Origin: Rhodocyclales bacterium
Lineage (GTDB): Bacteria > Pseudomonadota > Gammaproteobacteria > Burkholderiales > Rhodocyclaceae
Length of the DNA stretch: 64,000 nucleotides
Assembly: GCA_016235165.1 (NCBI GenBank)
Contig: JACRLX010000016.1
Location: forward strand, 1 to 64,000
Direction: 5' to 3'
Positions 4,643 to 60,885 of the stretch are shown piece after piece. The notes below the pieces were generated by a model, which was given only the letters and a program-made list of their open reading frames with translations, made no database searches and was not told where the DNA came from. Positions within the stretch are counted from its first letter, which is position 1; every line of letters begins with the position of its first letter. The position numbers and the translations under genes are program-made.

Positions 4643-4667
4643 GCGCCGTGTTGCCGGCACCGGCTTT
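4643..4667 (+). repeat. Degenerate copy of the 25-bp dispersed repeat
   Basis: Immediately after the DUF2917 stop codon. About 18 of 25 positions agree with the consensus built from the better copies; the CTTT end and the GCGCCGT start are present but the core is altered. Included as a probable decayed member. Confidence 0.35.
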
Positions 4668-4702
4668 CAGCTGCTGACCCCGGATTCCGGCGCCCGCGCG
4701 CG

Positions 4703-6817
4703 TCATGCGCGCTTGTCCAGCGAGCGGATGGCGCCGTGGATGGCGCGTTCGAACATCGGCCGGTCGGACATGACGATGCTTGCCGTCCGGTTGCGCAGAC
4801 GCACTGCCAGCGCTTCCGGCGTGATGGAGATGGCGCAGGCCGAGACGCTGTTGCTGAAGAGGAACAAGGTCCGGCTGGTGTTGATCCAGGTCAGCCGCTC
4901 GCGCCGGTTTTGGCCGGCGGTGATGAAGTCGACCCAGTCGCCGCGTACCAGCTGGCGCACGCGGCGCAGGTCGGCGCGGTCTGGCGTGTTTTCCTCGCCC
5001 AGGTCCTGGCTTTCCGCCAGGGAAATGTCCTGCACCCGCACGCCGCTGTCGGTGGCATGGCTGACTTGCAGGGTCGGCGCCGCCACCGCCTGGCGCGGCT
5101 TTTCTTCCTCCGCCGGCCGGGCGGCGGGGTCGGCGCGCTTCGGCGTTTCCGCGCGCAGTGCCAAGAATTGCAGCTCGGCCAGCAAGTCCATGAAGCTCTT
5201 GCGCTCGGTGGGCGAGGTGCCGATTTCGTCGAAACCGGCGTTGAGATTCTTCAACAGTCCGGGCAGCGCGGCGGCGTGCCGCTTGCGCTCCGAGGGATCG
5301 TGCTTTGGCGTCACCGCCAGGATCAGGGCCACGGCGGTGCGCAATGCGTCGTTGGTGGGCGCGCCATCCTCCCCCGTGCGCGAAATCCGGCCCTGCACCA
5401 CGTCGCGCCAGTAGCTGCGCAGGAAGGATTCGATTTCAGGCGGCACCTGCGGTCCCAGCACCCGCTCGATGCAGTGGTTGGCCGCCCGTTGCGCGCGCAT
5501 CTGCGCTGCCCGAGAGAGCCGGATCTCTTCCTCGCGGGCACGCACCGCCTCGGCCAGTTCGCGATCCTGCTGTTCCTCGATCTTTTCACGCTCGGCAAGG
5601 AAGTCGTCCAGCTCGGCGTTGGCGGCGTCGAACACGCCCATGTCGCCGTCGTAGCTGGCCTGTATCGTGTCGACCAGTTCCGACAGCTTGCGGTAGAAGG
5701 GGTCGTCGGCATTCACCACCTTGCCCCAGCGGATCGCGACCGTGGAAATGCTGTCGAGGAAGCGTCGCGCCGGGTGGCTGCGATCGGCGAAGAAGCGCTG
5801 GTTGAGCATGGACGCCTTCAGCACCGTGGATTGCAGGCGCGAAACCAGCGCCTTGATGCCTTCCGCCACGCTCGGATCGCCGAACAGCAGGTCGAACAGC
5901 TCGGCGACGATGTCCAGCGTGACGGCTTCCTGCGGCCGCACGTCGCGCGCCGCGCCGCTGTCGCGCGCCATGCGCACGATGTTGGCATGACCGCCGGCGG
6001 ACGCCTTGGGCGGTGCGACCTGCATCGTCTTCAGCGAGTCGAACAGCTCGCGGTTGTCGGTCGCCGGCCTGGCCGGAGCGGATGCCTCCTCCTTGCTGCG
6101 TGCCTTGATCAGGCGGTCGAGCGTGGTCGCCACCTTGGCGGTTTCGGCCGCCACTTCGTGGGCATCGACGGGCGCGGTGTCGCGATAGCTGCGCTTGAGG
6201 CGGGGCAGGATGTCGGCTTCGATCAGCGCCTCGTTGACCACGCGATAGAGTCGCGGCAGTTCGGCGTCGAGATGCTCGCCCGCCAGCTTCAGCAACAGGA
6301 TGCGCGCGCCGGTGTCGGCGGTAATTTCGCTCAAGGCGCCCTGGAGGCAAGGCCACAGCGTGGCCAGCTTGAAGCTGGTGTCGCCCGGCTGCATCGCGCT
6401 GCGCAGCACCAGGTAGGAAATGCGACGCTCCAGTGGGTTGGTTTCGTCGCGACTGGCGGTGTTGAGCCGATCGAGCGCTTCGTTGGACGCAATCTGTATC
6501 GATTCCTCGGCGTCGCTCAGCAACTGCAGGTTGCCCAGTTCCCCGGTGTCGATGCCCGGCCGGGCCGGTTTGGTGGCGCGGCCGGCGAGCGCTGCTTTCA
6601 GCGCGGGCGCCACCTTGCCCCAATGGGCGGAGAGGGCCTGCTTGAGGGTGGCGGCGGCAATTCGCCGCTCCGGCTCGCGCGCCGGATAAGTCCGTGCTGC
6701 GACATCCTTGAGCAGCGCCGGGCCGAGTTCCTCCACCAGTTCCACCAGGTCGCTTTCCAGTTGCTCGCGGCAACTGGCAACCAGCCTGCTGAGGGTTGCT
6801 GCATCTTTTTCGGTCAT
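4703..6817 (-). CDS. DUF1631 family protein
   Basis: A 704-residue cytoplasmic protein with no signal peptide or membrane segment. Most of it is predicted helical with long charged stretches, including a coiled-coil-like segment rich in E, R and Q. The last 110 residues look like a PilZ-like beta domain (GDWVDF, RERLTWI and FLFSN strands) ending in a basic tail. This arrangement and length match DUF1631, a proteobacterial family of unknown function. The start at 6817 (MTEKDA) is chosen over an upstream in-frame start at 6913 because the extra 32 residues are atypical and cover the intergenic region. Transcribed alone. Confidence 0.8.
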   Translation of the reverse strand: MTEKDAATLSRLVASCREQLESDLVELVEELGPALLKDVAARTYPAREPERRIAAATLKQALSAHWGKVAPALKAALAGRATKPARPGIDTGELGNLQLLSDAEESIQIASNEALDRLNTASRDETNPLERRISYLVLRSAMQPGDTSFKLATLWPCLQGALSEITADTGARILLLKLAGEHLDAELPRLYRVVNEALIEADILPRLKRSYRDTAPVDAHEVAAETAKVATTLDRLIKARSKEEASAPARPATDNRELFDSLKTMQVAPPKASAGGHANIVRMARDSGAARDVRPQEAVTLDIVAELFDLLFGDPSVAEGIKALVSRLQSTVLKASMLNQRFFADRSHPARRFLDSISTVAIRWGKVVNADDPFYRKLSELVDTIQASYDGDMGVFDAANAELDDFLAEREKIEEQQDRELAEAVRAREEEIRLSRAAQMRAQRAANHCIERVLGPQVPPEIESFLRSYWRDVVQGRISRTGEDGAPTNDALRTAVALILAVTPKHDPSERKRHAAALPGLLKNLNAGFDEIGTSPTERKSFMDLLAELQFLALRAETPKRADPAARPAEEEKPRQAVAAPTLQVSHATDSGVRVQDISLAESQDLGEENTPDRADLRRVRQLVRGDWVDFITAGQNRRERLTWINTSRTLFLFSNSVSACAISITPEALAVRLRNRTASIVMSDRPMFERAIHGAIRSLDKRA

Positions 6818-7133
6818 TGAAAGGCCTGGTCCGGGGTTTCGACCGGCCGGATTATGACATCGGCGGCTACCGCGAAAACTCGGGGTAAGCACTGATTTCC
6901 GGTTCCGCGCCAACTATTACCGTCATCGGTCTTGGCGCCGTGGCACCGGCGCCGACTTTCATTCGACATCGCCCGGAGCGCCGGTTTGGGCTTCCGCTTA
7001 TCGATGCGGTAAGAAATCCTGATTTCACTTGCCGTTGGAATTGACTAGAGTGGGTGCCGCCATTCCGGCAAGCGGAGGGCGACAGAGCCGCGAGACAAGC
7101 CGGCCACACAAACCATTCGTACGGAGGAAGACA
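6818..7133. other. 316-bp intergenic region upstream of adk
   Basis: Divergent spacer between the DUF1631 gene and adk. It holds one copy of the dispersed 25-bp repeat (6935-6959) and the adk leader. No convincing sigma-70 promoter with both hexamers at proper spacing was found, and no hairpin or small gene stands out. Confidence 0.6.
6935..6959 (+). repeat. Copy of the 25-bp dispersed repeat
   Basis: Intergenic, between the DUF1631 gene and adk. It carries the exact 11-base core GCGCCGACTTT and about 20 of 25 consensus positions. Confidence 0.65.
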
Positions 7134-60510: not shown

Positions 60511-60746
60511 AGCGATTTGTGGCTGCCGTCGCAAAGTGCCCCGTTGGCGCTTTGCTTGCAGCCGCAGAAATAGACCGTCTTGCTTTCATCGGCCGTGTAT
60601 TTCGTCGGCTCGAATTCGGAGCCTTTATGGCTGCCATCGCAAAAGGGTTGGGTTTTGCTCTTGCCGCAGGAGCACCAGTAGTAATCCTTGCCCTTCTCGA
60701 CATTGACGGCAAAAGGGGACTTCGCGGCGATTTCGGGTTTCGACAT
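60507..60746 (-). CDS. Small protein with two CDGSH iron-sulfur motifs
   Basis: A 79-residue protein with two CDGSH-type [2Fe-2S] binding units: CSCGKSKTQPFCDGSH and CGCKQSANGALCDGSH, each with three cysteines and one histidine. It is the compact bacterial form of the mitoNEET group (electron or cluster transfer). The start at 60746 is a family-like start with GGAG upstream. It lies convergent with fbpB inside the fbp locus, which suggests iron-linked regulation, though no Fur site is visible at its own start. Confidence 0.9.
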   Translation of the reverse strand: MSKPEIAAKSPFAVNVEKGKDYYWCSCGKSKTQPFCDGSHKGSEFEPTKYTADESKTVYFCGCKQSANGALCDGSHKSL

Positions 60747-60860
60747 TTCGGGGCTCCGTTGCTTGTTGGGTTGTGGAGCCCGCACTATAGGCAATCCGCC
60801 TGTCGCCGGAAACAGGGGATAAACGAACAGTTTGTTTTGTGTCGAGGAACAATCGCGCTG

Positions 60861-60885
60861 AAAGTCGGCGCTGGCGATACGGCGA
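60861..60885 (-). repeat. Copy of the 25-bp dispersed repeat downstream of fbpA
   Basis: Intergenic. AAAGTCGGCGCTGGCGATACGGCGA in two pieces: AAAGTCGGCGCTGG and CGATACGGCGA. One transition from the inverted consensus. It sits 7 bp from a strong hairpin after the fbpA stop. Confidence 0.8.

Follow-up and report, generated by a model that had tools for sequence, protein, structure and literature searches.

A 64-kb window (63.7% GC) of the genome of a Rhodocyclales bacterium (assembly GCA_016235165.1, contig JACRLX010000016.1, positions 1 to 64,000) carries a dispersed motif of 25–28 bp, which is probably a self tag, similar to the DNA uptake sequence (DUS), of the genus Sulfuritalea and related genera. 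Here the window means this whole stretch; its genome, G000, comprises 4.47 Mb in 57 contigs. The genus of the window would be Sulfuritalea, and in Sulfuritalea UWPOB_SULF1 the core 11-mer of the motif was counted 195/204 times (reversed control 3/1). Sulfuritalea is placed in the family Sterolibacteriaceae by NCBI and in Rhodocyclaceae by GTDB.

Motif Sequence and Copy Number

The core 11-mer GCGCCGACTTT is present in 10 exact copies in the window, compared with a mean of 0.07 in shuffled windows, which agrees with the initial annotation of this DNA, where about ten copies, far above chance, had been reported. Alignment of the 44 exact 11-mers from a 464-kb sample of G000, consisting of the window and 400 kb from contigs C2 and C8, showed that the motif has sharp edges, at about −16 and +11 relative to the first base of the 11-mer, with very little information beyond them. 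A motif profile of 28 positions was built from this sample by iteration, with a cut-off score of 13 for matches; a mirrored profile, first-order Markov sequence, the 11-mer pattern read backwards and shuffled windows served as controls. The sample contains 89 profile matches, while the mirrored profile gave 1 match and the Markov sequence 2; 83 of the 89 score at least 25. In the window 16 matches with scores of 25–41 were found, and no other position scores 10. Motif copies form a discrete class.

The motif is represented by 35 bits of information and the consensus aatCGCCGTgtCGCCAGCGCCGACTttt (capitals, above 75%; 158 sites of G000 and G002). Twenty of the 28 positions are more than 75% fixed and GC-rich; the working consensus, TCGCCGTnYCGCCRGCGCCGACTTT, is non-palindromic. 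The genome-wide count proposed in the initial annotation gave 414 exact 11-mers in G000 (223 forward and 191 reverse) against 6 (3 + 3) for the backwards control, and the number of motif copies in the genome, scaled up from the sample, is estimated at about 820–840. The motif is the top over-represented 10-mer in the 464 kb of G000 and in 480 kb of G002, and its copies are spread in a near-Poisson manner (mean 1.83, variance 1.65 per 10 kb, 86 bins). The excess is also genus-wide, so that copies are neither at the level of expectation nor confined to the window.

Distribution and Dialects

The 11-mer was found in all 30 other genomes sampled from the genus, in 23 to 415 copies; in 6 family genomes from outside the genus and in 24 genomes from other families the count is 0 to 19, mostly at the level of the control. 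A family-wide scan with the pattern CGCCGTNNCGCCRGCGYCDACT, with one mismatch allowed and the reversed pattern as control, revealed at least 28 matches in 31 of 249 genomes, belonging to 8 of 68 genera, while the remaining 218 genomes have 0–13 matches (reversed control at most 2). Under the codes used here for genera of the family, the genomes with at least 28 matches are 9/9 in g1 (the genus of G016, which has only 28), 1/1 in g32, 7/8 in g43, 1/2 in g47 (29 matches), 1/1 in g62, 1/1 in g69 (32 matches), 4/4 in g70 and 7/7 in g88. Among 386 genomes from other families of the order none has more than 5 matches. Named records among the matches listed are Sulfuritalea, Sulfurisoma, Rugosibacter, Propionivibrio, ‘Rhodocyclaceae bacterium’ and a few others. 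Thirty-five genomes were picked from the listed matches, and 33 of them are rich in the 11-mer (at least 109), with the exception of one Propionivibrio (12) and one metagenome-assembled genome of Thiobacillus (1).

Several genomes contain dialects of the word. Genomes G001, G015 and G027 have few copies of GCGCCGACTTT (35–42) and contain GCGCCAACT words instead, with one match scoring at least 12 per 4.6, 8.6 and 5.5 kb, respectively, partly at the same places as the copies of G000. In G010, GCGCCGACT is mixed with GCGTCTACT and GCGTCGACT, and in the g43 genomes G107 and G167 the start TGCCGT was found in 12 of 14 words.

G016, the clean low-motif case, has nearly lost the motif: no profile match of at least 18 was found in 80 kb, and the motif is absent from the top 25 10-mers in 152 kb. 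The word is absent from G328. G021 carries 78 exact 11-mers, comparable to G004 (78) and G025 (85).

A second, unrelated repeat was found in G002 (L007–L010 and L209–L228). It is represented by 10-mers such as CCCCGGATAG and CTCCCTCTCT, with 15–19 copies in 480 kb, and is strongly over-represented; the highest-ranking words of G000 and G016 do not include it.

Origin by Substitution and Conservation of Places

In alignments to five relatives from the genus, the alignable copies of the window are mostly at the same places, and the places are thus conserved when compared as the initial annotation had proposed; no alignment to these five genomes was obtained for the first 19 kb of the window and for certain other sites. 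In motif-rich relatives, identity is 0.865 in the motif and 0.795 in the flanks (47 site–genome pairs, 16 sites; eight relatives were classed as rich, and G009 yielded no pair). At third codon positions, identity is 0.82 inside the motif and 0.65 outside (11 of 12 coding sites, Wilcoxon p = 0.001); the inside value is 0.80 with G021 added (0.65 outside, 11/12 sites, p = 0.001) and 0.79 with every genome except G016 (0.65 outside, p = 0.002). For G016 the corresponding values are 0.29 inside and 0.71 outside (two pairs only), and for G021, 0.57 and 0.57 (three coding pairs), these five pairs being too few alone to measure erosion. A gap in the core is present in 12 of 62 site–genome pairs, 9 of these at the end of truA. 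Of 6 site pairs without the motif from G016 and G021, 4 align without a gap and 2 are gapped.

Of 19 motif-rich genomes from six genera, all except G096 (18 of 19) have the leuC copy at identical codons, as does the low-count genome G133; the copy is absent from the low-count genomes G016 and G111 and from all seven motif-free genomes tested. None of the 30 aligned rows has a gap at this site, including 9 rows without the motif from low-count or motif-free genomes; motif-free LeuC proteins read, for example, GTLGRGVTAKD or GELAEGVTAKD at this place. Motif copies arise by substitution, not by insertion. A substitution-origin test of this kind was earlier applied to the uptake signal sequence (USS) of Pasteurellaceae (PMC1626085).

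Two leuC lineages, with about 75% protein identity, both carry the copy, so that this location either is ancient or was used on two occasions; because the two lineages are mixed in the leuC tree, this tree cannot date the motif. Among the leuC loci L249–L278, both lineages are present in G134, and the lineage of G016 differs from that of the sampled members of its genus.

Genomic Context

Copies were found both between genes and in coding regions, as was initially described: in the 464 kb of G000, 57 of 87 copies lie completely within called genes (coding fraction 0.853, p = 4e-6), 3 lie across a gene end and 27 are intergenic, and in G002, 41 of 71 are wholly in called genes (coding fraction 0.865, p = 3e-9). 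Genes of both genomes were called with a simple codon model made for this analysis. The six reading frames are used unequally by the 98 coding copies (antisense 39, 2 and 10; sense 2, 24 and 21; p = 2e-12), and the encoded peptides are KVGAGxTA, AVPPAPTF, RRRxASADF and ExSALATRR. KVGAGxTA-type peptides, already pointed out in the initial annotation, are the commonest reading (39/98 in the G000 and G002 samples).

Coding copies are biased towards gene ends, 74 of 96 being in the outer thirds of genes (two cut genes dropped; p = 0.03); no difference in copy orientation was found between gene ends. Convergent gaps contain 10 of 26 intergenic copies in G000 (2.7 expected, p = 0.0002) and 10 of 29 in G002 (4.0 expected, p = 0.004). 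Two copy pairs of G002 are near-perfect inverted repeats. In the proposed strand and replichore tests, the 11-mer was not biased towards either strand (223/191, p = 0.13), nor did copies favour the leading strand in spaced stretches of the closed genome G002 (38/66, p = 0.27), where the replichore arms were taken from GC skew and stretch L228, with skew of about zero and 5 copies, was dropped.

Copy density rises with GC content (Spearman 0.43), from 0.43 per 10 kb below 58% GC to 1.0 at 58–61% and 1.9–2.4 above 61%, partly because the motif itself is GC-rich. No copies are present in stretch L219 of G002, containing TraU, McrBC and HipA genes. Of two motif-free gaps in G000, the one of 30 kb in C8 contains one LPD7 protein among 10 proteins scanned, the others being ordinary or without assignment, and the one of 25 kb in C2 contains genes of the exopolysaccharide type.

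Copies within the Window

Of about 18 copies initially claimed, 16 were recovered by the profile, and the two at 29512 and 38859 turned out to be right halves only. Strand and location of the copies, the latter with reference to open reading frames (ORFs), are as follows.

4643..4667, plus: score 25.5, weakest class; adjoins the end of called ORF 4345–4641.
6935..6959, plus: score 31.4; intergenic.
9044..9068, plus: score 40.5; intergenic, directly after the end of ORF 7844–9028.
12576..12600, plus: score 35.8; start of ORF 12570–13874, which has no Pfam match.
13157..13208, plus: split copy within ORF 12570–13874; an otherwise perfect motif interrupted by 27 bp, i.e., nine codons; the right part, 13184–13208, scores 25.2.
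19121..19145, plus: score 29.5; intergenic.
20107..20131, plus: score 36.5; in the SBP_bac_3 gene 20079–20849, peptide TAVPPAPTLA; at the same place in G010.
24402..24426, plus: score 32.5; antisense in the M48 peptidase gene 24142–25386 (minus); motif at the same place in G030, G002, G010 (TCTACT form) and G012 (12-bp insert), absent in G016.
26237..26261, minus: score 28.4; in ORF 25988–27589 (minus); motif at the same place in G030, G002, G010, G012 and G015 (CAACT form), eroded in G016.
29513..29523, plus: half-site, an exact 11-mer without the left half; best nearby profile score −2.5.
33439..33463, minus: score 35.6; antisense in leuC, 32920–34326.
38859: half-site, right-half match only; best nearby profile score −2.2.
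41439..41463, minus: score 32.3; 3′ end of truA (40668–41477); several relatives have motif-like sequence near the same stop codon, in a gapped alignment.
46092..46116, plus: score 39.8; near the 3′ end of the Mur-ligase-domain gene 44989–46287.
50596..50620, plus: score 40.5, exact 25-mer; antisense in the metallophosphoesterase gene 50198–50947 (minus), peptide KVGAGGTATL.
55914..55938, minus: score 35.4; antisense in the gene for cysteinyl-tRNA synthetase (54675–56045), near its 3′ end.
58461..58485, plus: score 30.4; antisense in ORF 57735–58823 (minus).
60861..60885, minus: score 40.4; convergent gap between ORFs 58900–60510 (plus) and 60916–61938 (minus).

The 27-bp interruption at 13157–13208 includes the near-palindrome CCCCAAGGGGACTTCCTTTGGGG, the core of which occurs once in the 464 kb of G000 and was not found in 480 kb of G002 or in 102 kb of G018/G030. 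At 13958–16312 on the minus strand, a 784-aa open frame, non-coding by the codon model, is located in a bin of 57.7% GC; this region is possibly acquired DNA.

Competence and Pilus Genes

ComEC is encoded in all 44 genomes searched, motif-rich or not (in G021 as a fragment at a contig end), PilQ and PilT in 12/12 genomes each, and DprA in 11/12 (not found in G005). The genome G000 has 16 matches to the N-methyl pilin N-terminus.

The DUS of Neisseriaceae is bound by the minor pilin ComP, and ComN/PpdA is the proposed receptor for the USS of Pasteurellaceae. No ComP orthologue was recognised, and comparison of the type IV pilins of G000, G002, G010, G016 and G027 gave no clear receptor candidate. 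The nearest candidate, a FimT-like pilin (L175:4330) with 53–62 bits to G002, G010 and G027 and less than 45 to G016, was rejected; the FimT-like pilin of G016 itself shares 41% identity with its counterparts in G002 and G010, and this pilin type is therefore not missing in G016.

Two pilin genes on contig C5 of G000 (L173:3733 and 3993) encode mature pilins of only 54 residues. Their relatives in G002, G010, G016 and G027 have 52–54 aligned residues; PilA of Geobacter is likewise short.

Copies in Mobile DNA

Motif-free genera sometimes have a few clustered copies. All five copies of G170 lie within 41 kb (C1:1461265-1502243, L229–L231) of a 3.66-Mb contig, near guaA; this region also contains a mercuric-reductase-like gene, Cus-type genes, and transposase domains of the IS91 and IS3 types. 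This region is probably an island from a motif-bearing donor. Mobile elements of Neisseria were traced through DUS (PMC7371117).

Interpretation of the Motif

The resemblance to DNA-uptake signals suggested in the initial annotation is supported, and the function as an uptake signal is predicted from sequence. The excess on both strands, substitution origin, third-codon conservation, dialects, the near-loss in G016, the bias towards gene ends and convergent gaps, and genes for type IV pili together fit DUS and USS better than any other class known to us, and the repeat probably works like a DUS. The uptake machinery is taken to be the reader of the word, and the assignment of the reading protein is presumptive in the same way. 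The 25-bp word in free DNA would be bound at the cell surface by a DNA-binding protein, for which a type IV minor pilin is the likeliest candidate, and the retracting pilus (PilT) would draw this DNA in through PilQ; ComEC would then carry it over the inner membrane, and DprA and RecA would recombine it. Fragments with a better word would enter more often, so that words formed by point mutation would spread and be repaired wherever the sequence tolerates them. A shift in receptor preference would be followed by words across the genome, giving dialects, and with loss of the receptor the words would erode.

Such motifs are known only from Neisseriaceae and Pasteurellaceae, according to a 2025 paper (PMC12616744). 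The initial annotation knew of no described family with this consensus, and none of the open-licence papers listed, preprints not included, deals with a motif of this kind in these taxa. Judged by their titles and abstracts, the papers in which the 11-mer occurs on either strand are about plants or enzyme engineering, and none were listed for the 13-base halves.

Similar to the DUS of Neisseriaceae, the motif is represented by hundreds to thousands of copies, is limited to a clade and has dialects differing in a few bases; its inverted pairs and its distribution in mobile elements may also be comparable to those of DUS, in which such pairs are terminators and the distribution in mobile elements is atypical (PMC3630211, PMC12616744 and PMC7371117). 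Dialects of DUS within Neisseriaceae are described in PMC3630211. The sequence GCCGT of the Neisseria 10-mer GCCGTCTGAA (PMC3630211) is also found in the left half of the motif and may be common to both by chance or by common descent. The longer GCCGTCT is present in 5/87 copies of G000, 5/71 of G002 and 5/14 of g43, GCCGTCTG in none of 172 copies from these genomes, and the whole 10-mer GCCGTCTGAA is not enriched (0 in G000, 1 in G002 and 1 in g43). The motif occurs at about 0.2 copies per kb; about 1900 DUS 10-mers are present in gonococci and meningococci, members of another family. The fixed CTG core of DUS, as given in PMC12616744, is not matched, since the sole CTG of the motif is on the other strand (CAG), where the position has A in 67 and G in 22 of 89 copies. 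A Neisseriaceae DUS by sequence is ruled out by the 25-bp length, the absence of GCCGTCTG from the 172 copies and the lack of a fixed CTG. The motif shares with USS a long extended motif (up to 32 nt) and types within the family (PMC12616744), as well as substitution origin (PMC1626085) and gene-end bias (PMC2346458).

A number of observations speak against an uptake word. The motif, at 25 bp, is about twice as long as DUS (10–13 nt), and USS consists of a 9-nt core with two weaker AT-rich stretches, while the motif has no AT-rich stretches and is unrelated in sequence. Inverted pairs able to form hairpins are rare (none in 464 kb of G000 and two in 400 kb of G002), as the initial annotation had noticed. 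Loss of competence genes had been expected in G016; this was ruled out by the presence of ComEC, PilQ, PilT and DprA, and ComEC is also present in motif-free genera, so that the machinery does not track the motif. The proposed search for com and pil genes thus succeeded in finding them, but they were also found where the motif is rare. No pilin was found that the four motif-bearing genomes share and G016 lacks, and no reports on DNA uptake or transformation in these bacteria were found among the open-licence papers listed. Phages had been expected to lack the word, which is ruled out by its presence in many viral contigs: at least 120 viral-contig stretches contain exact matches, and copies are located inside genes matching phage terminase, antirepressor and methyltransferase families (L339:11011-13161, L301:427-1419 and L285:1088-1834). 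Stretches of terminase-related phages, however, lack the motif in 75 of 80 cases, with 5 matches in 887 kb (79 stretches, the query's own excluded), and the copy in the terminase gene is shared with one relative of 84% identity; what these phage counts mean is limited by the fact that the hosts of the viral contigs were not identified.

Alternative Explanations

The word could be the site of a clade-specific chromosome-organising protein, nucleoid-associated or of segregation, directly selected at each site. Conservation beyond codon constraint, the near-Poisson spread, the clade limits and the presence of competence genes regardless of the motif are consistent with such a protein, but there is no strand or leading-strand bias, and about 820–840 sites far exceed those of the site-specific organisers known to us. 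Changes of dialect at orthologous places would be easier with a copying drive, and the near-loss in one species, G016, and copies within phage terminase and methylase genes likewise make an organiser site unlikely.

The word may also serve another DNA-processing system, as a Chi-like recombination signal or as a self mark for a defence nuclease, which would equally explain its occurrence on both strands, its dispersion, the dialects and the phage-borne copies. However, to our knowledge 35 bits over 25–28 bp is very long for signals of this kind, and the orientation bias of Chi was not observed. The enrichment in convergent gaps together with some perfect hairpins is the pattern of DUS and USS, and 75 of 80 related phage stretches lack the word, though phage hosts were not identified; this role is accordingly considered improbable.

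Repetitive extragenic palindromic sequences (REP), miniature inverted-repeat transposable elements (MITE) and Rickettsia palindromic elements, as known to us, are likewise short, dispersed and present inside and between genes, and the motif does form a discrete class of copies in ORFs and between them. Insertion of such a small mobile or palindromic repeat was nevertheless rejected as very improbable: no insertion signature, empty sites or target duplications were found, there is no conservation outside the motif, the motif is not palindromic, and dialects occur at fixed homologous places. The leuC site is ungapped in all rows, with or without the motif, as are 4 of the 6 motif-less site pairs of G016 and G021 (2 are gapped).

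Transcription terminators or regulator sites are suggested by the enrichment in convergent gaps and by the two inverted pairs of G002, which fold at −58.6 and −64.8 kcal/mol (86-nt stretches). Yet 98 of 158 copies lie entirely within called genes, sense as well as antisense, and a copy on its own is unable to form that hairpin, so that such a primary role is hardly credible. Inverted DUS and USS pairs serve secondarily as terminators (PMC12616744), and termination is a secondary use of the motif at most. An artefact of chance or codon usage in a GC-rich genome, for which the GC-rich motif and the common residues that it often encodes might speak, is practically excluded by the 414 matches against 6 in the reversed control and by the absence of any genome above 5 matches outside the family (n = 386).

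Significance of the Motif

If the motif is a DUS-like self tag, Sulfuritalea and related genera would likely be, besides Neisseriaceae and Pasteurellaceae, a third lineage in which self-DNA is recognised for natural transformation, with the longest fixed uptake word known to us and its own dialects and near-losses, in up to eight genera; this word would possibly be new or derived from a GCCGT ancestor shared with DUS. Uptake words are described in two families only (PMC12616744), and for this reason both the purpose and the origin of such words are under debate. An additional case with a longer word, dialects, a near-loss beside sisters that keep the motif, and motif-free relatives makes these questions testable, in particular whether the receptor or the word changes first and what is gained. 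The motif would also provide a barcode for DNA leaving the clade, as in the region of G170 with metal-resistance-like genes, and might help to assign hosts to metagenomic phages.

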